Shown: in pieces, positions 2,421-18,564 of the stretch
Layout of the letters: each line of letters begins with the position of its first letter
Position numbering within the stretch: the stretch's first letter is position 1
Virus record (IMG/VR): IMGVR_UViG_3300034812_000383
Span: 1-22,144 of that record
DNA: 22,144 bases
Strand: one strand, 5' to 3'
Source: a virus
Program-made: the position numbers and the translations under genes
The notes under the pieces: model-generated
What the model saw: only the letters and a program-made list of their open reading frames with translations
Databases searched by the model: none
Told to the model about the DNA's origin: nothing

Positions 2421-2661
2421 TATTCTCGCTCTTGCTTCTTTTGCTGTATCTGCTTCTATTGTTGGTGCAGGTACATATCTCTATCTTAATAAAGATGTAT
2501 TAATTGAAGATGCAAGAAACAATGTAACTAAGGCTGCTACCGAAGCAATTACTGATGCGCTTCCTGGTTTAGTTAACTCAGCAATGCCTAAGTTACCATC
2601 CGCTACTGGTGGTGCAATTCCAACTGGTGGTATGACTGGTCCTGATATTCGATTACCATGA
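2404..2661 (+). CDS. Small exported or anchored protein
   Basis: An 85-residue protein starting MQKLINILALASFAVSAS, an N-terminal hydrophobic segment (residues 4-28) that could be a signal peptide or an anchor. A helical middle (DARNNVTKAATEAITDAL) and a Gly/Pro/Thr-rich C-terminus follow. I choose ATG 2404; the frame is open further upstream, but that part is out-of-frame sequence of the preceding gene. It overlaps both neighbours, so translation is probably coupled. Function unknown. Confidence 0.75.
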   Translation: MQKLINILALASFAVSASIVGAGTYLYLNKDVLIEDARNNVTKAATEAITDALPGLVNSAMPKLPSATGGAIPTGGMTGPDIRLP

Positions 2662-3242
2662 CAAAACCTTCTCCATTAAAAATAACAGCTATCGCATTAG
2701 GTGCGGTTGTAGGAATTTCTCATGTAGGATTACTCGGTTATGTTCTGAGAGACAATACTCCTACAGTTAAACAAGTTCCTACTATCAATATTCCCCGTGG
2801 TGATTATTCTTCTTACACTATTAAAGCGGGTAAAGATGGATATGAAATAGAATACCGTGCTAACGATCCTGCTATTTTAGAATCAGAAAGATCTCTACAT
2901 CTTGATAAAGATAAGAGAGGATGGTTCGGTGGAGGTTCTGAAGTACGGAATGAGTATCGTCGTGATCAATATACTATGGACGGAACCCGTAATATCGGAG
3001 GAGGTGAAATAGGTGAAGTGGGAAAGACAGGAGGTGTCAGCGCCGAGTGTTTAGTGGCAGACGCTGGGGCCCGATCACAAGGTGCGATGGCGGGAACTAG
3101 TATTGCTGCTGGTATCGGTGTTCCTGCTGTTGCTAGTATTCCATACATCGGTTGGTTAGCTGGTGGGTGGATGTTACTCCTAGGACAGAAAGCAGGATCT
3201 GAATTAGGATCACAAGTTGGTAGTGTATTTAATGATTGCTAA
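2658..3242 (+). CDS. Membrane-associated protein with Gly-rich hydrophobic C-terminus
   Basis: A 194-residue protein. Residues 8-30 form one hydrophobic N-terminal span. The middle (35-120) is polar, with many Tyr, Asp and Arg. The C-terminal 60 residues are Gly/Ala-rich and hydrophobic (about 140-178), with Cys at 131 and at the penultimate position. The glycine-zipper-like C-terminus suggests membrane insertion or oligomer packing. ATGA overlap upstream and TAATG overlap downstream. No family recognised. Confidence 0.75.
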   Translation: MTKPSPLKITAIALGAVVGISHVGLLGYVLRDNTPTVKQVPTINIPRGDYSSYTIKAGKDGYEIEYRANDPAILESERSLHLDKDKRGWFGGGSEVRNEYRRDQYTMDGTRNIGGGEIGEVGKTGGVSAECLVADAGARSQGAMAGTSIAAGIGVPAVASIPYIGWLAGGWMLLLGQKAGSELGSQVGSVFNDC

Positions 3243-4060
3243 TGGATATTCCAGAAATTCGAGTTGATAATTTAGATATTAGAACAACTAAATTAGATAT
3301 TAAATCAATTGAAATTGTTGATGTATTGAATGCACCATCATCATCGATACCAGTTGCGCCTCCAGTTGTTCTTAATGTAGGTATACCAGTTGTTGATATG
3401 CCTGGTTGCGTAGAGGCGCATGAAACTAATAACGTAAAGAATGATAAAATCAATGAAGACGATTCAAACGGTCTGGTCACGTACTGCGATACTGGTCTTC
3501 CTGGTTTCAATCCTATTTCTTTTGAACCTGAGCAGATGATATTTACTGGTGAGGCTGAAGTGCCACCAGTAAAACCACCAGAGTCTCCAGAAGTTCCTGA
3601 AGCACCAGAAGTTAAACCACCACCAGTCAAGTCTGCAACAATAGAGTGTCCAACGCCTGCTCAAGACGCAAAAGAACCCGTCGGCACATTGGTCAACGGG
3701 TTCAGAGAAAAAGTTACTGGATATAAACTAATAGGAAATGAATGTATTCAGGAAACTGAACCAGTTCCTATTCAAGTACAATTAGTAGAAGGATTACCTA
3801 GCGCTGGTGCGGTGACCGCCACCGCTTCGATTGCTGTTGTTGCGACGACTTCTGCACTGCTCGCAAAACCTCTTGCTGACCTTCTGTTAAAAGTGGTGAA
3901 ACCTGCTGTGAAGAAAGTGATGAAGAAGATTGCTGCGATAAGGGGGAAGACTCTCCCTGTCCAGTCCGTGAAGGAACGTCAGGTTGAACAACGTCAGAGG
4001 AATCATGCGATTCGTGCTCTTCGTGAGGTTTTACCGAAGAAGAAGAAACCGAAGGGATAG
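3242..4060 (+). CDS. Pro-rich protein with C-terminal membrane segment and basic tail
   Basis: A 272-residue protein starting at ATG 3242, whose A is shared with the previous stop codon; an in-frame TTG lies at 3236. The N-terminal part has repeated D-I/L-D-I spacing (residues 2-30). A Pro/Glu/Val-rich linker with PP and PEVPEAPEV repeats follows (about 108-130), then Cys-bearing modules and a hydrophobic span (about 190-215, Ala/Val/Leu) followed by a strongly basic helix and tail ending KKKKPKG. The Pro/Glu-rich spacer looks like a periplasm-spanning linker. The last 263 bases lie antisense to the 3' end of the leftward gene. Function unknown; possibly an envelope-spanning or virion protein. 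Confidence 0.78.
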   Translation: MDIPEIRVDNLDIRTTKLDIKSIEIVDVLNAPSSSIPVAPPVVLNVGIPVVDMPGCVEAHETNNVKNDKINEDDSNGLVTYCDTGLPGFNPISFEPEQMIFTGEAEVPPVKPPESPEVPEAPEVKPPPVKSATIECPTPAQDAKEPVGTLVNGFREKVTGYKLIGNECIQETEPVPIQVQLVEGLPSAGAVTATASIAVVATTSALLAKPLADLLLKVVKPAVKKVMKKIAAIRGKTLPVQSVKERQVEQRQRNHAIRALREVLPKKKKPKG

Positions 4061-4841
4061 CATGAACGTGTGGGTGTGTATGTCCTGGTGGATTATTTAC
4101 CAACACATCGGCACAAATTTTATAATAGGGACTCTTGGGGTGGAATTGAATACCACGTAGCATCAAATCGCCACAGTTCTTAAGTCTTGCTATTTCAAAA
4201 TCCAATCTCTTATTAGCAGTTAGTTGTTGCATCATTTCGATGTTAGCAGCTGCTGCTTCTTTACATTGTTCTTGTAACTTATTATCTAATGGTCTAGACC
4301 ATGTAGCAGAAAAACCTATTGATAGGTTAGTATTATTCTTTTGACCTGTTCTAACTGGAACTTGATAAAGCACTGATCCTGGATTATCCGGTGCTCCGTC
4401 TTCATCTAGATCACGCATGTCATAAACATTATCAAAGTATTGATCCTCAAATGGATGTTGTTGTGATAAAGACCCCGTTACATACGGGGTAACATTCATA
4501 GTTGGTCCCTGGCATTGAATTCCTCCGCCATAAGTATTTGTGATATAGGGACCTTGTAAAACCTGGATCGCTTGATTAGTAACAGAGCCTGAAGAATTAG
4601 CAACAGGAGCAGCTGTGGCGCTAACACCACCCACAGTCTCAGCGATTGCTTGAGATGGAAATAATACACTTAAACCTATTGCGAGAAGATACTTGTAGTG
4701 TCCGTTATACTTTGAACCTCTGTCACTCTTTCTATAATTGTATGGTTGCTTAGCCCTGGACCTTGATAGGTTTCGGTGAATTGAAAAGCAGCCCCTGGTG
4801 TTGTTTGTGTGAATTGGGGTTTGGTGCTGATTCCTGTCCAT
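3798..4841 (-). CDS. Exported protein with Ser/Gln-rich tail; start unclear
   Basis: The core is recognisable as a secreted protein. A signal peptide (YLLAIGLSVLFPSQAIA, cut before ETVGG) sits about 50 residues into the open frame. A domain with CQGP, a Tyr/Asp-rich acidic loop, and a Cys-containing helix ending near HTHPHVHAIP follows. About the last 84 residues are Ser/Gln-rich, low in complexity, and coded entirely antisense to the end of the rightward gene. The only nearby in-frame ATG is at 4841, which would overlap the upstream leftward gene by 166 bases and put a poor-quality, basic leader ahead of the signal peptide. No ATG, GTG or TTG sits at the signal peptide itself (about 4700). 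The real start may be non-canonical or reached by frameshift. Third gene of the leftward exported set. Confidence 0.65.
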   Translation of the reverse strand: MDRNQHQTPIHTNNTRGCFSIHRNLSRSRAKQPYNYRKSDRGSKYNGHYKYLLAIGLSVLFPSQAIAETVGGVSATAAPVANSSGSVTNQAIQVLQGPYITNTYGGGIQCQGPTMNVTPYVTGSLSQQHPFEDQYFDNVYDMRDLDEDGAPDNPGSVLYQVPVRTGQKNNTNLSIGFSATWSRPLDNKLQEQCKEAAAANIEMMQQLTANKRLDFEIARLKNCGDLMLRGIQFHPKSPYYKICADVLVNNPPGHTHPHVHAIPSVSSSSVKPHEEHESHDSSDVVQPDVPSRTGQGESSPLSQQSSSSLSSQQVSPLLTEGQQEVLRAVQKSSQQQQSKRWRSPHQR

Positions 4842-5125
4842 GTTGATGTCACTCCGTCAATCGTTACATTGTTTGTTCCTGTCCCTGGAGACAGATTTCC
4901 ATTTGCTGTAACACCACTACCAGTTGCTGAATACTGGTATCCGGTGTTATAATCCATTGAATTAATGGTTTCAGTTATTTTCTGAGTCGTCTCTGTGTGA
5001 CTCGTCATTGAGCCCTGTGTGAAGTTTGGGACCACGGGGACCGCCTGGGCACTTGCAGCAGTAAGAGAGACTGCCACCACACTTATCACAGTAGATGTGA
5101 TTGTCTTTCCAAAATGGATGTTCAC
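4676..5125 (-). CDS. Exported Thr/Ser-rich protein, GTG start
   Basis: A 149-residue protein with an N-terminal signal peptide (TVISVVAVSLTAASAQA, cut before VPVV) and a Thr/Ser/Asn-rich, probably beta-structured mature part. I choose GTG 5125 because GAGGA lies 8 bases before it; an in-frame TTG at 5140 overlaps the upstream stop. Near the C-terminus it has GAAFQFTETYQGPG, closely resembling GAAFSFSQSYTQGD in the neighbouring gene, so the two are probably paralogs. Export and repetitive Thr/Ser composition suggest a periplasmic, outer-surface or virion-surface role; no function is known to me. Confidence 0.75.
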   Translation of the reverse strand: MNIHFGKTITSTVISVVAVSLTAASAQAVPVVPNFTQGSMTSHTETTQKITETINSMDYNTGYQYSATGSGVTANGNLSPGTGTNNVTIDGVTSTWTGISTKPQFTQTTPGAAFQFTETYQGPGLSNHTIIERVTEVQSITDTTSIFSQ

Positions 5126-5136
5126 GGGGATTGTCC

Positions 5137-5640
5137 TCAATCAATTACCGTGATCTCTGATACAAATTGTCCGATTCCACTTGTTCCGGCGCCTCCTGCG
5201 GTGACTGTGAGGACTCCAGCAGAGGTGACAGTTCCAGCAAGGCTTCCAGGAGTACCTGCAGTGTAAGAAGTGGTGTTAGAAAAGTTAGGCACTGTACCTA
5301 CCGTTGCAGCACTAGTTGGAACAGCATCACCTTGAGTGTATGATTGACTAAAGGAGAATGCAGCTCCTGCTGTATCTTGAGTAGCAGCGATAGTACCTGG
5401 TGCATAGATACCAGAAGTGATAGTACCAGCAGAAACAGTTCCTGCAGTATTACCATCAGTAGTATCTATATTAGATCCAGAGATACTAAATGTTGAGCCA
5501 ATTCTAGTTGCTTGTGTTCTTGCTGCATCTACGGTCAGCTGAACACTAGAAGCGTGTTTGGATACTATACCACCAGCGTGTGCTGCTGATGTTGTCATCA
5601 ATAACATTACGAGTGGAAGAATTTTATTCATAACGCTCAT
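5137..5640 (-). CDS. Exported Ala/Thr/Gly-rich beta protein
   Basis: A 167-residue protein with a clear signal peptide (residues 1-22, KILPLVMLLMTTSAAHA, cut before GGIV) and a mature part made of short Thr/Ser/Gly/Ala-rich strands (SAGTITSGIYAPGTIAA). GAAFSFSQSY at about 93-102 is shared with the downstream paralog. First gene of the leftward operon, 15 bases after the minus-strand TATCTAAATA late motif; a second ATG lies at codon 4. Composition resembles surface-exposed, repeat-like proteins. No family recognised. Confidence 0.75.
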   Translation of the reverse strand: MSVMNKILPLVMLLMTTSAAHAGGIVSKHASSVQLTVDAARTQATRIGSTFSISGSNIDTTDGNTAGTVSAGTITSGIYAPGTIAATQDTAGAAFSFSQSYTQGDAVPTSAATVGTVPNFSNTTSYTAGTPGSLAGTVTSAGVLTVTAGGAGTSGIGQFVSEITVID

Positions 5641-11383: not shown

Positions 11384-11468
11384 GGAAAGGTGGTCGAGTG
11401 GTTTATGGCACTGGTCTTGAAAACCAGCGATGTGAAAGCATCCGTGGGTTCAAATCCCACCCTTTCCG
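11384..11468 (+). tRNA. tRNA-Ser (UGA)
   Basis: Acceptor GGAAAGG/CCTTTCC with discriminator G, anticodon stem CTGGT/ACCAG with loop CTTGAAA (anticodon TGA), a long variable arm as expected for serine, and T arm GTGGG-TTCAAAT-CCCAC. CCA is not encoded. Confidence 0.95.
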
Positions 11469-11488
11469 TGTCCTTCGACTGATTTCAA

Positions 11489-11659
11489 ATGAAAATCAAT
11501 CTATGGTATTCTCAATCTCAACGTCAGTGGAGATGGTCATTATGTGACGACAGTGACGCTATGAGACAAGAATCTGGTCAACGACCATTCCTTCGAGATG
11601 CTATGAACGACGTTGCAGATACTGTAGAATATATGCTACAGTGTAAACAACCCGAATGA
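11489..11659 (+). CDS. Small Trp/Gln-rich conserved-looking protein
   Basis: A 56-residue protein starting MKINLWYSQSQRQWRWSL and continuing through QESGQRPFLRDAMNDVA to a helical end ending CKQPE. It lies between tRNA-Ser and the lysozyme-like gene and is likely co-transcribed with the tRNA. The pattern RQWRW...RQESGQR is familiar from cyanophage unnamed proteins. A small hairpin (AACCC/GGGTT) overlaps its stop. Confidence 0.7.
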   Translation: MKINLWYSQSQRQWRWSLCDDSDAMRQESGQRPFLRDAMNDVADTVEYMLQCKQPE

Positions 11660-11687
11660 AGGGTTCCTCTTTGAGGATACAAATTTT

Positions 11688-12284
11688 ATGAGGATTATGA
11701 TTAAATCAATTATTGGAATGAGCATTCTTGCTGCATCAGTTGCGATTACGCCCAATGCAGACAAGCATGTTTCGTCATCATCACAATCAGAACCAATTGA
11801 AATTCCACAGGTTGCATATAAGCCTGTTTGGACGTGTCCTGATTGCACACCAGAAGAAAAATATGTTCTTGAACAACTTCAAGAACATACACGTATTACG
11901 GATAGAAATGCCCTGGCGACAATTTTGGGAAATATTAAACAGGAAAGTCTTTTCATTCCCAACATATGCGAGGGAGGGGCTAGAGTTTCTTACAACAATT
12001 GCCATAGTGGTGGTTATGGGCTTATTCAGTGGACCTCAGTAGGACGCTATAATAATCTCGGTAAGTTCTGTGTTAAGTACAACTGCGATCCGAGTAGTCT
12101 TGAGGGACAAACTCGTTACATGATCAATGAAAATATTTTTCAACGTTATCTTCCAGAGTTTGAAGGTAATGGAAAAACAGTTAGACAGTATATGGTTCCT
12201 GCTTATTATTGGTTAGGGTGGGGTATTAAAGGAAACAGAGAAATTTACTCGTATGACTACACAAAAAAATTGGTGTTGACATGA
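11688..12284 (+). CDS. Exported lysozyme-like protein (phage tail-lysozyme type)
   Basis: A 198-residue protein with an N-terminal hydrophobic signal (about 5-20) and a lysozyme-like domain from about 65 to 195. The likely catalytic Glu is E86 in NIKQES, followed by the substrate-cleft motif GGYGLIQWTSVGRY (108-121) and SLEGQTRYM. This pattern matches the 'phage tail lysozyme' family, which cleaves peptidoglycan. A signal peptide suggests export to the periplasm without a holin, or release after signal cleavage. Cys pairs (C50/C53, others later) may form disulfides. GAGG lies about 10 bases before ATG 11688. Alternative: a virion-associated lysozyme. Confidence 0.82.
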   Translation: MRIMIKSIIGMSILAASVAITPNADKHVSSSSQSEPIEIPQVAYKPVWTCPDCTPEEKYVLEQLQEHTRITDRNALATILGNIKQESLFIPNICEGGARVSYNNCHSGGYGLIQWTSVGRYNNLGKFCVKYNCDPSSLEGQTRYMINENIFQRYLPEFEGNGKTVRQYMVPAYYWLGWGIKGNREIYSYDYTKKLVLT

Positions 12285-12304
12285 TTAACGACTGGCGTTA
12301 TAGT
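12276..12304 (+). promoter_or_regulatory. Sigma70-type promoter at lysozyme gene end
   Basis: TTGACA (12276-12281), 17-base spacer, TATAGT (12299-12304). It overlaps the last codons of the lysozyme-like gene and the start of the next, so it would mainly serve the gene at 12490 and tRNA-Arg downstream. Confidence 0.5.
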
Positions 12305-12493
12305 GATCAAAAAATGAAAACAAGACAGCAAGCTTATTCTATTCTTCTTGCTCGCTATGGGTCACAATTAAACCCAGATGGTAGTCCCATATATAATATG
12401 AAGTCAATCACAGAGTGTGCTCATGATTGGGTTTCACAAGGAAATGTTAGATGCGATGGTATTGTAAAATACTTTGAAGCTTATTACACATGA
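12281..12493 (+). CDS. Small hypothetical protein
   Basis: A 70-residue soluble protein. The N-terminal half is basic and helical (KMKTRQQAYSILLARYG); the second half contains ITECAHDWVSQGNVRCDGIV with two Cys. ATGA overlaps at both ends link it with the lysozyme-like gene and the next gene. Partner or inhibitor of the lysozyme is possible from position only. Confidence 0.72.
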   Translation: MINDWRYSDQKMKTRQQAYSILLARYGSQLNPDGSPIYNMKSITECAHDWVSQGNVRCDGIVKYFEAYYT

Positions 12494-12690
12494 CAAATTC
12501 TTCTAAATGGGAATTTGGTGGTCTTGACAGACACCCTGTTAATGTGTTAAGGTTAATCAGTGAACTTGAGGGGTCTTCACAACTCCTCAAGTACATGGGT
12601 TTCAAAGAAGACATGGAAACCATCAATGAGATAAAGAAAAGGTATTACAAACTTTACTTTAAACTCAACAAAGAACTTAAGACTCAGTAG
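12490..12690 (+). CDS. Small hypothetical protein ending inside tRNA-Arg
   Basis: A 66-residue helical, basic protein (EFGGLDRHPVNVLRL, then EIKKRYYKLYFKLNKELK). ATGA overlap with the previous gene. Its last three codons and stop TAG lie in the first ten bases of tRNA-Arg, so tRNA processing must cut the mRNA. Confidence 0.7.
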   Translation: MTNSSKWEFGGLDRHPVNVLRLISELEGSSQLLKYMGFKEDMETINEIKKRYYKLYFKLNKELKTQ

Positions 12691-12754
12691 CTCAGCTGGA
12701 TAGAGCAACTGCCTTCTAAGCAGTCGGTCGTAGGTTCAAATCCTACCTGAGTCG
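12681..12754 (+). tRNA. tRNA-Arg (UCU)
   Basis: Acceptor GACTCAG/CTGAGTC with discriminator G, anticodon stem ACTGC/GCAGT with loop CTTCTAA (anticodon TCT), T arm GTAGG-TTCAAAT-CCTAC. The 5' end overlaps the upstream gene's stop. Confidence 0.95.
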
Positions 12755-12880
12755 CTAATGGGACTGGAATGCATCCCGGCTCACATCTCCGAGAGAAAAA
12801 AGAATCGGAACACCAACCCATGTGAGAGAGAGGTGGGATCCCTCTTGAGCCTCCCCTGCTGACGAGCAGGGGATATTTTT
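12755..12880 (+). ncRNA. Candidate structured RNA between tRNA-Arg and tRNA-Asn
   Basis: No convincing gene is present, but several pairings nest: GGGA/TCCC (12760/12774), CTCACAT/ATGTGAG (12780-12786/12820-12826) enclosing TCCGA/TCGGA (12788-12792/12805-12809), AGAGG/CCTCT (12829/12841) and the terminator hairpin at 12853. T4 makes two stable RNAs of unknown role from its tRNA cluster, which is the closest known parallel. Could instead be a processing spacer. Confidence 0.4.
12853..12880 (+). terminator. Strong hairpin with short T run between tRNAs
   Basis: A perfect 8-bp stem CCCCTGCT/AGCAGGGG with GACG loop, followed by ATATTTTT. It looks like an intrinsic terminator, just before tRNA-Asn, which has no obvious promoter of its own; it may be partial or act as a processing signal. 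Confidence 0.65.
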
Positions 12881-12882
12881 AT

Positions 12883-12955
12883 TCCTCTATAGCTCAGTTG
12901 GTAGAGCAGGTGACTGTTAATCACCCTGTCCCTGGTTCGAGTCCAGGTGGAGGAG
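12883..12955 (+). tRNA. tRNA-Asn (GUU)
   Basis: Acceptor TCCTCTA/TGGAGGA with one G-T pair, discriminator G, anticodon stem GGTGA/TCACC with loop CTGTTAA (anticodon GTT), T arm CCTGG-TTCGAGT-CCAGG. Confidence 0.94.
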
Positions 12956-12958
12956 TCC

Positions 12959-13030
12959 GCTCGAATAGCTCAGCGGTAGAGCACCTCGTTTACACCGAGG
13001 CTGTCGGGGGTTCGATCCCCTCTTCGAGCA
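12959..13030 (+). tRNA. tRNA-Val (UAC)
   Basis: Acceptor GCTCGAA/TTCGAGC with discriminator A, anticodon stem CCTCG/CGAGG with loop TTTACAC (anticodon TAC), T loop TTCGATC with one weak stem pair. Three bases after tRNA-Asn. Confidence 0.94.
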
Positions 13031-13047
13031 TTAGTATCATACATACT

Positions 13048-13308
13048 ATGAACAAAGAAAAAATCAAAGACAATCTACACGAAATCCACCTAGAACTAGC
13101 CTATTTGAGAGCTATGGTAGAAAATGTTAGTAATCAGATGCAAGAATTGCGGGATGCAATTGGAGAGTCATCCAACCAAAACCAGAAGTTGCCGTTGCCC
13201 CAACCATACGAGCATCCGTGGTACAAATATAAGCGGGAACAACTTATCGTTAGTGGAAATAGTCAGCGGGATGACTCCAAAGAAAAAGAAATCTCAATCA
13301 ATCTTTAG
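13048..13308 (+). CDS. Coiled-coil protein
   Basis: An 86-residue protein from ATG 13048. Residues 1-40 are a strong amphipathic helix or coiled coil (LHEIHLELAYLRAMVENVSN, then QMQELRDAIG); the rest is polar with a PLPQPYEHPWYKYK segment. The open frame extends back across tRNA-Val and tRNA-Asn, but that part is tRNA sequence. It overlaps the next gene by 38 bases. Unknown function. Confidence 0.68.
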   Translation: MNKEKIKDNLHEIHLELAYLRAMVENVSNQMQELRDAIGESSNQNQKLPLPQPYEHPWYKYKREQLIVSGNSQRDDSKEKEISINL

Positions 13309-13381
13309 CGAACAAGATCTTTTGTATCAAGAAAACAGACGCAAAAGAAAAGTTAGAAAAATAGACTTTGAAGAAAGGTAA
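13271..13381 (+). CDS. 36-residue highly basic protein
   Basis: ATG 13271 to TAA 13381. MTPKKKKSQSIFSEQDLLYQ then ENRRKRKVRKIDFEER: 13 Lys/Arg in 36 residues. Possibly binds nucleic acid. It overlaps the coiled-coil gene. Modest support from composition and from the gene-like spacing. Confidence 0.5.
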   Translation: MTPKKKKSQSIFSEQDLLYQENRRKRKVRKIDFEER

Positions 13382-13429
13382 ATCAAATCTATAGAGAGTG
13401 TTAAATATGAACAGGTTCTGAAGAACTTT

Positions 13430-13438
13430 TGTTATAAT
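13430..13438 (+). promoter_or_regulatory. Extended -10 promoter before the 66-residue gene
   Basis: TGTTATAAT, a consensus -10 with the upstream TG of extended -10 promoters, 22 bases before ATG 13461. No good -35 hexamer is present, which fits the extended type. Confidence 0.5.
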
Positions 13439-13460
13439 ACTCACACAAACGGAGACACCC

Positions 13461-13661
13461 ATGATCAACTTAGATGAACGCTACCATTCTTATCTTTCAG
13501 GACAAAAGAAGTTTCGTATCGATGATATTGAAGAATCTGTGAAAGGATATGGATATGAATGTGATGGTTCATCCATAGTTGGTTATTACGTGTTGACAGA
13601 GAACCACAAATTATACTATAATCTCAACGAGCAATTCAATCGAATGGAGAAACTTAAATGA
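13461..13661 (+). CDS. Small hypothetical protein upstream of talC
   Basis: A 66-residue soluble protein (INLDERYHSYLSGQKKFRID, later YGYECDGSSIVGYYVLTEN), looking like a small alpha/beta fold. ATG 13461 follows GGAGA by eight bases. Its stop overlaps the talC ATG. The talC promoter lies inside its C-terminal half. No family recognised. Confidence 0.75.
   Translation: MINLDERYHSYLSGQKKFRIDDIEESVKGYGYECDGSSIVGYYVLTENHKLYYNLNEQFNRMEKLK
13593..13622 (+). promoter_or_regulatory. Sigma70 promoter for talC inside the preceding gene
   Basis: TTGACA (13593-13598), 18-base spacer, TATAAT (13617-13622), 35 bases before the talC ATG. Both hexamers match the consensus. Confidence 0.65.
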
Positions 13662-14302
13662 AAATCTTTCTTGATACAGCAGACTACAGAGAGATCAAAG
13701 ATCGTTATGAAACTGGATTGGTAGATGGTATTACTACCAATCCTACACTAGTACGTAAGTCGGGTGTAAATTATTTTGATTTCATCAGTCGTCTATCTCG
13801 CGATTTCTCTTTCGAGAGTATTTCTGCTGAGGTTGATGGGCAGACTGCTGATGATATGTTGGAAAATGCTCAAGAATATATTGCAATTGGTTCGGAAGTT
13901 ACCATCAAACTTCCCCTGACAAAGGAGGGTCTTATTGCTTGTAGGATTCTTTCTGAACAGGGTGTGAAGACTAACGTTACTCTTTGTTTCTCTGCTGCAC
14001 AAGCAGTTATGACTGCAAAAGCAGGTGCTACATATATTTCTCCTTTTGTAGGTCGCATGAATGACAACTCCTTGAGTGGTGTTGAACTTGTACGTGCTAT
14101 CTCTGGTCTATATTGTGCTCAAGGAGTTAAAACAAAAATTCTTGCTGCATCACTTCGAGATGTACATCATGTTTCTAGGTGTCTGATGTATGGTGCTGGT
14201 GTTGTAACACTACCAACTAAAGTTTTTGATAAGATGTATAACCACGTTCTGACTGATGCAGGACTTGCTATCTTTGAAGAAGACTTCAAAAATATTACTT
14301 GA
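13658..14302 (+). CDS. talC: Transaldolase (TalC type)
   Basis: Transfers a dihydroxyacetone unit between sugar phosphates in the non-oxidative pentose phosphate pathway. 214 residues, the short single-domain form. TTNPT is at 26-30, the Schiff-base lysine is K84 in VTIKLP, and SPFVGR lies at 128-133. It complements zwf and gnd and is a well-known cyanophage metabolic gene, thought to push carbon to pentose and NADPH. It has its own promoter inside the upstream gene, and its TGA stop forms part of the next promoter's -35 box. Set among tRNA genes, away from gnd/zwf. Confidence 0.95.
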   Translation: MKIFLDTADYREIKDRYETGLVDGITTNPTLVRKSGVNYFDFISRLSRDFSFESISAEVDGQTADDMLENAQEYIAIGSEVTIKLPLTKEGLIACRILSEQGVKTNVTLCFSAAQAVMTAKAGATYISPFVGRMNDNSLSGVELVRAISGLYCAQGVKTKILAASLRDVHHVSRCLMYGAGVVTLPTKVFDKMYNHVLTDAGLAIFEEDFKNIT

Positions 14303-14327
14303 CAAGTATTTGTCCCTATACTATAAT
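14299..14327 (+). promoter_or_regulatory. Consensus sigma70 promoter for the tRNA-Pro unit
   Basis: TTGACA (14299-14304), 17-base spacer, TATAAT (14322-14327), 15 bases before tRNA-Pro. The -35 box overlaps the talC stop codon. Likely drives the Pro-Ile-Met-Thr tRNA run. Confidence 0.9.
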
Positions 14328-14341
14328 AAGGGACAGTTCAC

Positions 14342-14415
14342 CGGGGTGTAGCGCAGTTTGGTAGCGCGCCTGCTTTGGGAGCAGGATGTCGCAGGTTCAA
14401 ATCCTGTCACCCCGA
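14342..14415 (+). tRNA. tRNA-Pro (UGG)
   Basis: Acceptor CGGGGTG/CACCCCG with discriminator A, anticodon stem CCTGC/GCAGG with loop TTTGGGA (anticodon TGG), T arm GCAGG-TTCAAAT-CCTGT. Confidence 0.95.
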
Positions 14416-14432
14416 TTTTTCATCTTAAAAAT

Positions 14433-14603
14433 ATGGAAGTATTCACGATTCAAGAATGGGAAGAAAACTTCGACGAACTTTTTAAGAGAGTTGAGGATGG
14501 AGAAACGATAGGTATCCTAAGGGAAGATGGTCAAGCAGCAGTAATGATGCCAGCGGATGATGAACTCATACGCATATACACAGATCATGAAGAAGCTTCC
14601 TAA
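14433..14603 (+). CDS. Phd/YefM-like small protein (antitoxin-like orphan)
   Basis: A 56-residue protein: MEVFTIQEWEENFDELFKRV, then EDGETIGILREDGQAAVMMP and a short acidic end. The order strand, helix (NFDELFKRVEDGE), strand (TIGILRED), strand (AAVMMPAD) is that of the DNA-binding N-terminal part of Phd/YefM antitoxins. No toxin gene lies beside it: tRNA-Pro ends 17 bases upstream and tRNA-Ile starts at the base after its stop codon. It could be an orphan repressor or a decoy antitoxin against a host toxin; that is inference. I started at ATG 14433; upstream of it the frame is tRNA sequence. Confidence 0.72.
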   Translation: MEVFTIQEWEENFDELFKRVEDGETIGILREDGQAAVMMPADDELIRIYTDHEEAS

Positions 14604-14675
14604 GGGACCGTCGCCTATCGGTTAAGGCCCACTGCTTATAACGGTGTGAACTGGGTTCAACTCCCAGCGGTCCTA
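14604..14675 (+). tRNA. tRNA-Ile (UAU)
   Basis: Acceptor GGGACCG/CGGTCCT (one G-T pair), discriminator A, anticodon stem CACTG/CGGTG with loop CTTATAA (anticodon TAT), T arm CTGGG-TTCAACT-CCCAG. UAU reads AUA directly, the rare isoleucine codon that bacteria normally read with a modified CAU tRNA. Confidence 0.9.
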
Positions 14676-14677
14676 TT

Positions 14678-14750
14678 GGGGGATTAGCAATCTGGTGAAT
14701 GCACCGAACTCATAATTCGGCTAAGGTGGGTTCGATCCCCTCATCCCCCA
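14678..14750 (+). tRNA. tRNA-Met (CAU), elongator-like
   Basis: Acceptor GGGGGAT/ATCCCCC with discriminator A, anticodon stem CCGAA/TTCGG with loop CTCATAA (anticodon CAT). The first pair is G-C, not the C-A mismatch of initiators, so it is elongator Met or a lysidine-type Ile. The presence of tRNA-Ile(UAU) next door makes Met more likely. Confidence 0.88.
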
Positions 14751-14774
14751 TCAACTAAATATTTTTAGTTGTAT

Positions 14775-14847
14775 GCCATTCTAGCTCAGCTGGTAGAGCA
14801 GGGCTTTTGTAAAGCTCAGGTCGCAGGTTCAAGTCCTGTGAATGGCT
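14775..14847 (+). tRNA. tRNA-Thr (UGU)
   Basis: Acceptor GCCATTC/GAATGGC with discriminator T, anticodon loop TTTGTAA (anticodon TGT) on stem GGGCT/AGCTC, T arm GCAGG-TTCAAGT-CCTGT. A short inverted repeat (AACTAAA/TTTAGTT) precedes it. Confidence 0.94.
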
Positions 14848-14850
14848 TAG

Positions 14851-15039
14851 TCTCGGAAAGACTCTAAAAGTGCCCTGGTCGGTGAAGGTCCCCCTTCAAT
14901 CCCGAAGTCATGGAGAGACTTAAACAACCCTGGTGCGGATGGGATTACTCCCGCCCAGTTTCTTGCTTCTGGTAAAAAGTAAGTGGTGGATCCAAAAGAC
15001 CCCTTCCGTGTGGTTGATTCCTATTTGCAACTAAACTAA
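14851..15039 (+). pseudogene. Coding remnant without start codon between tRNA-Thr and tRNA-Leu
   Basis: One reading frame gives protein-like sequence: from 14851 ALVGEGPPSIPKSWRDLNN then PGADGITPAQFLASGKK, stop TAA at 14980-14982, and in the same frame after the stop VVDPKDPFRVVDSYLQLN to TAA 15037-15039. No ATG, GTG or TTG precedes the first part; the second could start at GTG 14983. Small hairpins AGTCT/AGACT (14849-14863) and GAAGG/CCTTC (14884-14897) lie in it. It may be a decayed gene cut by tRNA insertion, or a gene with an unusual start. Confidence 0.35.
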
Positions 15040-15046
15040 ATAGGTG

Positions 15047-15083
15047 GCGAGCCTGCTCTGGGGGATGACCTCCCCCTCCTCGC
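15047..15083 (+). other. Strong hairpin directly upstream of tRNA-Leu
   Basis: GGGGGA/TCCCCC (15060-15065/15071-15076) with a TGACC loop inside a flanking GCGAG/CTCGC pairing (15047-15051/15079-15083) that reaches the first two bases of tRNA-Leu. No T run, so probably a processing or folding element. A CTAAATA late-like motif lies just before it at 15036. Confidence 0.45.
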
Positions 15084-15163
15084 ACGTATGGCGGAATTGG
15101 TAGACGCGCTGGGTTTAGGTTCCAGTGGGGTATCCCGTGAAGGTTCAAGTCCTTTTACGTGCA
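15082..15163 (+). tRNA. tRNA-Leu (UAG)
   Basis: Acceptor GCACGTA/TACGTGC with discriminator A, anticodon stem CTGGG/TCCAG with loop TTTAGGT (anticodon TAG), a long variable arm, T arm GAAGG-TTCAAGT-CCTTT. Confidence 0.93.
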
Positions 15164-15183
15164 TTAACAACTAAGAGAAAATT

Positions 15184-15834
15184 ATGAACAAATTATTACT
15201 TGCTTTGATTTTAGCTGCCGCACCAGTTGCAGCTGCTCCTTCTAAGGGGTACTTTACGATGGATGCTATGGGGTGCATGCTGTTACGAGAATGTACCGAA
15301 GATGTTAAACGAGTCAGAAGTATTCAAGATATTAAAAACCATTATCCCGATAGTGATTACAGTAGCGTTGCTACTGAGTTTAATGACATCATCGAGTCTT
15401 TTAATCGGATCGGAGTTGGTGTCTTTTTAGCAGATACAAAATACTTCCCTCCGGGTCATCGTGGAGTCTATCATACAGTAGGAAATAACTTCTTTTTGAA
15501 TAGTGCATTTATGCATCGTCAGAGCACGCTCATGTCCGTCACAAGACACGAAGGATGGCATGCTGCCCAGGATTGTATGGCTGGGACAATTGATAACAGT
15601 TTTATTGCTATTATTAAATCTGAAGAATCTGTTCCTATGTTGTGGAGAACAATGGCAGAACGTACATATCCAAAGTCTGCTGTCCCTTGGGAAGCAGAAG
15701 CAGGTTGGGCAGGACGTACTGAAGGTATGACTGCTAAGGCATTGGATGCTTGTGCTACCGGTGAGATGTGGAAAGTTTACGAACCTACACCTAAGACTGG
15801 TGAGTGGCTTAGACAAAATGGATACATCGATTGA
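15184..15834 (+). CDS. Exported protein with HExxH zinc-protease motif
   Basis: A 216-residue protein with a signal peptide (residues 1-18, LLLALILAAAPVAAA). The motif HEGWH at 122-126, inside TRHEGWHAAQD, is an HExxH zinc site, and a Glu-rich helix PWEAEAGWA (169-176) further on could give the third ligand. Several Cys (C31, C37, C131 and one near the end) suggest disulfides in the periplasm. This looks like an exported metallopeptidase; substrate unknown, possibly envelope protein. It begins 20 bases after tRNA-Leu, and its stop overlaps a -35 box. Confidence 0.78.
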   Translation: MNKLLLALILAAAPVAAAPSKGYFTMDAMGCMLLRECTEDVKRVRSIQDIKNHYPDSDYSSVATEFNDIIESFNRIGVGVFLADTKYFPPGHRGVYHTVGNNFFLNSAFMHRQSTLMSVTRHEGWHAAQDCMAGTIDNSFIAIIKSEESVPMLWRTMAERTYPKSAVPWEAEAGWAGRTEGMTAKALDACATGEMWKVYEPTPKTGEWLRQNGYID

Positions 15835-15859
15835 CAAACCCGGATCAATCCCCTATAAT
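15831..15859 (+). promoter_or_regulatory. Consensus sigma70 promoter before the 94-residue gene
   Basis: TTGACA (15831-15836), 17-base spacer, TATAAT (15854-15859), 21 bases before ATG 15881. The -35 box overlaps the stop of the exported HExxH gene. Confidence 0.9.
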
Positions 15860-15880
15860 ATACAAGTCTGAAACGATTCT

Positions 15881-16165
15881 ATGAAAAGTCCTATTGTTGG
15901 TGAAGATAATACTTACGAATATCATCGTAGGTGTCGCATGGCTGATTCAATTGGTGACTATCTCTCTGATGAGAAAGTAGATGCTCGTCAATGTTACGAA
16001 GAAATTTTAGCTGAAGTCGATGAAGTTATTGAATATCATCGAACCTACTTGTCCAAAGCGCAAAGATTTAAAGAATTGATGCTTGGTAATCGAGAGATTG
16101 ATTTCTTTGATGACAAAGAACTTGCAACCAAGTGGAAATATGATAGAATTCTTTTGAACGAGTGA
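15881..16165 (+). CDS. Conserved-looking acidic helical protein
   Basis: A 94-residue soluble protein rich in Asp, Glu and Tyr. Mainly helical: EYHRRCRMADSIGDYLSD, then CYEEILAEVDEVIEYHRTYL and a final basic helix. No membrane segment or catalytic motif. A consensus promoter and a terminator whose hairpin starts in its last codons make it a single-gene unit ahead of tRNA-Gly, probably early. Function unknown. Confidence 0.78.
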   Translation: MKSPIVGEDNTYEYHRRCRMADSIGDYLSDEKVDARQCYEEILAEVDEVIEYHRTYLSKAQRFKELMLGNREIDFFDDKELATKWKYDRILLNE

Positions 16166-16179
16166 TACGTCACTCTTTT
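16160..16179 (+). terminator. Terminator overlapping a stop codon
   Basis: GAGTGA/TCACTC with TACG loop and TTTT. The gene's TGA stop is inside the left arm. tRNA-Gly starts 2 bases later, so some readthrough or another promoter must supply that tRNA. Confidence 0.75.
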
Positions 16180-16181
16180 CT

Positions 16182-16253
16182 GCGGATGTAGTTCAGCGGT
16201 AGAACGCTATCCTTCCAAGTTAGATGTCGTCGGTTCGATTCCGATCATCCGCT
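16182..16253 (+). tRNA. tRNA-Gly (UCC)
   Basis: Acceptor GCGGATG/CATCCGC with discriminator T, anticodon loop CTTCCAA (anticodon TCC) on stem CTATC/GTTAG with one T-T mismatch, T loop TTCGATT. Confidence 0.92.
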
Positions 16254-18419: not shown

Positions 18420-18515
18420 GGTGAGGATTTCCTCACCATCCACACACGCCTCACCAGGACTAAACAGCGTGTCTAAAAAATAGTCCTTCATACCTTCTCC
18501 TGAGGGTGGAGAAGG
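18420..18515 (+). promoter_or_regulatory. Structured psbA leader with possible pseudoknot
   Basis: Hairpin GGTGAGG/CCTCACC (18420-18437); then ACACGC/GCGTGT (18444-18449/18467-18472) whose loop carries GGACTA (18457-18462) complementary to TAGTCC (18481-18486), the topology of an H-type pseudoknot with an A-rich third loop; then hairpin CCTTCTCC/GGAGAAGG (18493-18515). About 150 bases of leader in all. No ribosome site precedes the ATG. Could be a ligand or protein sensor, or a stability element. Confidence 0.5.
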
Positions 18516-18564
18516 AATACTATAACCAGTGTTCCCCGCACTAATACTTAACCCTTTTGTTCAA

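Follow-up and report, generated by a model that had tools for sequence, protein, structure and literature searches.

We have asked why the reading frame of a leftward cyanophage gene continues past a conserved region of its product into the complement of a convergent gene, R, and whether the Ser/Gln-rich tail coded there is a selected protein segment or a by-product of the codons used in R. The window, the whole stretch of 22,144 nt that was analysed, is derived from a T4-like marine cyanophage; the relatives of its proteins are those of T4-like cyanophages, and nrdB, gnd, zwf and tRNAs are present.

A convergent gene pair in a cyanophage cassette

The features considered are as follows.

2658..3242, plus strand: phrog_605 gene (T4-GC 219), upstream neighbour of R
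3242..4060, plus strand: rightward gene R, 272 aa, phrog_570 / T4-GC 234, stop codon at 4058-4060
3798..4060, both strands: antisense double-coding overlap of 263 nt, leftward residues 262-347 opposite R residues ∼186-272
3798..4841, minus strand: leftward gene, 347 aa, phrog_848/phrog_1755 / T4-GC 235, stop at 3798-3800
4676..4841, minus strand: same-strand overlap of 166 nt, the N-terminal ∼55 codons of the leftward gene lying in the 3′ end of the DUF6322 gene
4676..5140, minus strand: DUF6322 gene (PF19847, phrog_650, T4-GC 236), upstream neighbour of the leftward gene
5137..5640, minus strand: phrog_564 gene (T4-GC 237), first in the leftward arm

R and the leftward gene are convergent and their ends are interlocked. 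The cassette order met in the window, phrog_605, 570, 848, 650 and 564, is identical in Syn1 and S-CAM22, with R, the leftward gene, the DUF6322 gene and the phrog_564 gene labelled T4-GC 234, 235, 236 and 237, respectively, in the Syn1 record. Relatives of R are encoded in 401 phage records and those of the leftward protein in 442. Both overlapping proteins matched only PHROGs families without an assigned function, a Pfam search gave zero matches for either, and a profile search for relatives of solved structure returned none. Excerpts of Sullivan et al. 2010 (PMC3037559) describe a T4-GC 218/219/234/235/237 hypothetical gene cluster, which 15 of 16 cyanophages carry and which is possibly mobile and composed of genes that are possibly functionally linked. 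These are the same genes as in the window (T4-GC 219/234/235/237), and the locus belongs to a cassette that nearly all T4-like marine cyanophages carry, but the antisense overlap, the tail and the double coding are absent from the cassette description in those excerpts.

Elsewhere in the window, ten tRNA genes are located from 11384 to 16253, and Rfam matches at 14903-14997 and 18433-18528 correspond to wcaG RNA and PhotoRC-II cis-regulatory RNAs. Genome contigs were also matched, namely cyanophage-like contigs (L247-L254), which were binned in Lewinella, Formosa, Euryarchaeota, Bacteroidetes, Gammaproteobacteria and Chloroflexota MAGs or, in one case of 188 kb, contained in a Nonlabens xiamenensis assembly, and, as one further match, a Prochlorococcus single-cell contig. 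These are likely cyanophage DNA and not host genes, the MAG and Nonlabens placements likely reflecting contamination.

As a preliminary description of this DNA had noted, the leftward frame remains open well past HAIP. From the Ile of that motif, 86 residues (I262 to R347) and a stop are read, the change to low complexity coincides with the R stop at 4060, and the tail is rich in Ser and Gln. Among relatives, overlap-coded tails contain 24% Ser and 11% Gln compared with 11% and 3%, respectively, in non-overlapping tails. A sequencing error that removed a stop, raised in the same description, is ruled out because an identical 263-nt overlap is present in another contig (L081) and comparable overlaps of 206-230 nt occur in five isolates (S-H9-2, Sf-FP1, Sf-CH11, S-CAM22 and S-SCSM2R). 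Nor is the 86-codon overlap a matter of chance, synonymous recoding of the window R leaving a mean of 7.8 antisense codons open compared with the 86 observed, a length reached in 0/5000 recodings. The membrane span plus basic tail assigned to the end of R was retained in part, as a basic helix, the span being read as only a hydrophobic Ala/Val/Leu-rich stretch; an AlphaFold model of R (pLDDT 61) places helices at 187-203, 208-232 and 242-262 with modest confidence.

Overlap classes and their history

From 246 loci collected, 181 distinct loci were kept for the survey. An overlap of at least 60 nt was present in 139 of the 181 and in a single phase throughout, the second codon position of the leftward frame being the complement of the R wobble base and the leftward wobble that of the R second base. 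Loci were classed as separate (25), tiny (<60 nt; 13), short (80-130 nt; 74) or long (190-350 nt; 65), with 4 unclassed. The two genes are an antisense, tail-to-tail overlapping pair in which both frames are conserved across relatives over the shared stretch. The C-terminal length of the leftward protein after a conserved CADV equals ∼17 residues plus overlap/3 (r = 0.98), with no more than 42 residues in 40 non-overlapping or barely overlapping relatives and up to 141 in overlapping ones. The extension is absent where R is not opposite, the long Ser/Gln tail being confined to the complement of R; the same tail in the absence of R opposite, which the preliminary description had named as the observation that would count against overprinting, occurred in 0/40 of these relatives. 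Conversely, the C-terminal region of R exists without the leftward tail in separated genomes. The expectation that homologues stop near HAIP held for only a few (the L033, L055 and L159 types, within a few residues of HxI) and not for most, the majority of non-overlapping homologues continuing for ∼20 residues more with a conserved A-E-D-L-G-G-P-like (AEDLGGPL-like) motif.

Two further observations were made at the leftward end. In deep long-overlap loci, L141, L113 and L125 among them, the LLGGPMSLP at the very C-terminus is similar to the DLGGPI motif seen in tails that do not overlap R; it is encoded at a different place on R, and convergence on a C-terminal motif is possible. At another locus (L024:1559-1951), the same in-phase stop, there opposite HSIP, terminates an unrelated neighbour gene that overlaps the leftward tail by 74 nt, constituting a second independent antisense overlap at this leftward end.

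The overlap is old and family-wide, not recent in the window genome. In core-protein trees of both genes the classes are intermixed, with 34-35 parsimony changes compared with 76-79 for shuffled labels. With midpoint rooting, the first two branches to diverge in the leftward tree consist entirely of long-overlap loci, and the Fitch root state is LONG on the leftward-core tree and ambiguous for R. It is simpler to assume an ancestral overlap that was repeatedly shortened or separated, and midpoint rooting favours this, the class trees being weak on short versus long polarity because recombination scrambles them.

The preliminary description had attributed the whole tail over R to a recent stop loss in the window lineage, followed by overprinting. 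Overprinting on R was upheld; a recent event of the window genome was not, and as the origin of the entire tail it is unlikely. Non-overlapping homologues do end 0-25 residues past HxIP, and the last ∼12-14 tail codons (the end of SSQQQQSKRWRSPHQR) are common only to the window, L081 and L002, other long tails stopping earlier; for these codons, a recent extension by stop loss is plausible. However, the occurrence of the overlap in the same phase in most relatives and on the deepest branches, together with the LONG root state, stands against a recent origin of the tail as a whole. The reverse history, in which the C-terminal region of R grew leftward into an older leftward tail, is quite improbable. 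The neighbour gene in L024 indicates that the leftward end can catch genes from the other side at the same stop, and AEDLGGPL-like tails exist without R opposite, but the basic C-terminal region of R is conserved in separated R genes, and every long Ser/Gln tail has R opposite.

The likeness of AEDLGGPL tails in separated and short-overlap genomes also brought up a scenario in which the overlap is ancestral and separated genomes arose via insertion and duplication of the shared stretch. The codons of those motifs differ (CTC/CTT GGC versus CTT/TTA GGT), convergence is possible, and duplication is not claimed.

Codon choice in R and the leftward tail

A Lys/Ala/Val-rich, GC3-shifted R 3′ end might leave a long antisense frame as a by-product, in which case the tail would be unselected. 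The composition of R does permit open antisense frames, and an unrelated antisense ORF of 133 aa is present at 3229-3630, but the 3′ stretch of R is full of stops in separated genomes, in which antisense stops occur at 1-21% per codon over the last 84 R codons. Antisense stops in the short class number 0/1776 in the first 24 codons and reach 21% at codons 36-48, and in the long class number 0/3900 in the first 60 codons. When centred on the leftward stop, antisense stop density decreases from 28-30% just outside to 0 inside. Since the leftward ORF is in part defined by being stop-free, the evidential weight lies with the separated genes, the shift in codon choice and the recodings of R.

Codon choice in R changes at the leftward stop. 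At R codons 36-66 from the end, 0.78 of Val codons are GTG in the long class, compared with 0.12 in short-class genes and 0.09 in separate ones. Lys is coded by AAG at 0.70-0.75 in the overlap compared with 0.41 upstream, and GC3 of R is 0.54-0.60 and 0.23-0.27, respectively, with a step at the leftward stop from 0.13 to 0.45 in the long class and from 0.34 to 0.57 in the short class. In each of two classes that differ in the position of the boundary, the composition shift follows the leftward stop, contrary to what an unselected frame would give. Stop avoidance is neutral on AAG versus AAA; before an A-starting codon, AAG yields a leftward Ser and AAA a Phe.

Substitution patterns were also altered within the overlap. 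A four-fold-site test over all pairs was noisy and closer pairs were used instead. Third-position differences at codons 42-66 amounted to 0.088 per codon in long pairs and to 0.201 and 0.194 in short and separate pairs, respectively; upstream, every class had values of 0.30-0.34. The comparisons are between loci that are heavily recombined and not phylogenetically independent. Only in the overlap of the long class does synonymous change fall by more than half, which again is not expected of a by-product. In codons 8-32, common to short and long overlaps, the ratio of second- to third-position changes is 0.68-0.73 versus 0.29 in separate pairs, the raised second-position changes corresponding to the leftward wobble. 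The window and L081 differ at the third position in 2 of 87 overlap codons and in 21 of 185 elsewhere; a drop in third-position change within the overlap was not seen when the window was compared with L001 or L002. At an L-G-A-P motif of the short class, the R Arg is CGC in 65/65 genes and the following Gln is CAG in 65/65, whereas the site is mixed in separate genes (Arg CGT/CGC/AGA, Gln CAA/CAG). With the wobble bases of the motif fixed in this manner, an unselected antisense frame is very improbable and is already largely refuted. The conservation of R residues, combined with leftward stop avoidance, the codon shift and lowered synonymous change, indicates selection on both products, as judged from sequence comparison. 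Least probable of all is that the codon shift is caused by a nucleic-acid element where the two genes converge, be it a bidirectional terminator, a structured RNA or a recombination site: terminators are common at convergent 3′ ends, but neither a terminator-like site nor an Rfam match was found in 3798-4060, and the position of the shift changes with that of the leftward stop and depends on codon position.

Hydropathy of the tail is reduced relative to stop-free synonymous recodings, with median z of −5.2 and −3.25 in the long and short classes, respectively, and −7.7 in the window. When the null is matched to third-base composition, the medians are −2.1 in the long class (92% below −1.64) and −1.2 in the short class (35%). 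The matched null removes much of the signal, a point in favour of an unselected, compositional origin, and because it shrinks z the hydropathy effect is exerted mostly via the third-base shift; the boundary of that shift follows the leftward stop. The leftward protein consists of a basic N-terminal extension, a signal-peptide-like segment, a conserved core and the Ser/Gln tail. The signal-peptide-like segment suggests that the protein is exported, and the tail is probably disordered, as the low-confidence AlphaFold model (pLDDT 48) gives most of it a value of ∼30, with a possible helix at 320-340.

The codon switch at the leftward stop, the more than halved synonymous change, the hydrophilicity and the presence of a tail only opposite R indicate a tail that is under selection as protein and has been overprinted on R. 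Taken as a whole, interlocked cassette arms in which the R wobble bases keep a hydrophilic leftward tail open are very probably the correct explanation. The arms (T4-GC 219/234 rightward; T4-GC 237/236/235 leftward) interlock at their 3′ ends, the leftward frame running in fixed phase past the conserved HxIP into sequence complementary to the terminal 80-350 nt of R. R residues are kept, with R third bases chosen for a stop-free other strand and a hydrophilic, Ser/Gln/Pro-rich tail whose length is set by the next usable stop, ∼35 or ∼70-110 codons in. In the short class, the most constrained piece of the tail appears to be the L-G-A/G-P motif. The tail would be translated and may serve as a flexible exported linker or as a C-terminal sorting or contact segment. 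One DNA stretch would be maintained for two proteins, and the interlock would tie both arms, with mRNAs that would be complementary over their last 263 nt in the window phage. A function of the interlock beyond space, in which it would lock the arms of a mobile cassette, with a membrane-associated basic R C-terminus and the exported tail in one complex and joint control via the complementary mRNA ends, is conceivable but rather doubtful.

Related systems and the N-terminal overlap

The function of antisense-coded segments has been argued mostly from expression data, and this locus adds evolutionary evidence with built-in controls, R being found with no, short or long overlap across scores of related phages and codon choice following each boundary. 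A literature search for transcript, ribosome-profiling or peptide data on the gene pair found none. In viruses and E. coli, overlapping genes that arose through stop loss or through overprinting are described (excerpts of PMC8227390 and PMC2268670). In those excerpts, as here, two proteins are obtained from one DNA stretch, with a younger segment over an older gene; here, in contrast, the younger part is an antisense C-terminal extension of a conserved, putatively exported protein, and it is family-wide, graded in length and accompanied by natural non-overlapping controls. Bacterial antisense overlapping genes, in the portions of the reports concerned, include ano in E. coli O157:H7 (PMC5960689) and three in EDL933 (PMC9927249), which resemble the present case as protein-coding frames antisense to an annotated gene. 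According to those portions, ano is almost wholly embedded and was found by expression data, whereas the overlap described here is partial and tail-to-tail, with evolutionary evidence. CfrI of cyanophage S-PM2, an RNA antisense to psbA and a homing endonuclease gene (PMC2984593), similarly represents antisense transcription in a cyanomyovirus but at another locus.

From an ATG at 4841, the leftward frame also reads across the 166 nt with which the DUF6322 gene ends. In 139 relatives, stops in the leftward frame were observed in 1/8332 codons within the 60 that precede the DUF6322 stop, increasing to 3-9% further upstream, and wobble T before AA/AG/GA occurred in 0/727 cases in the DUF6322 overlap versus 333/1080 upstream. 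The distal ATG was found in 140/163 loci, and no other ATG, GTG or TTG is present within 45 codons of the mature start in 115/164. The double-coded N-terminus is a ∼50-residue basic extension ahead of the signal-peptide-like segment. This pattern supports a leftward N-terminus that is double-coding with the DUF6322 gene, and because of the overlaps at both ends (263 nt + 166 nt) ∼41% of the leftward ORF would be double-coding. In 11 annotated phage records (L239-L246 and L255-L257), the leftward gene is absent from six, N-terminally truncated in three and full length in two, probably because gene callers reject overlaps; missing or truncated in 9/11 records, it is easily overlooked.
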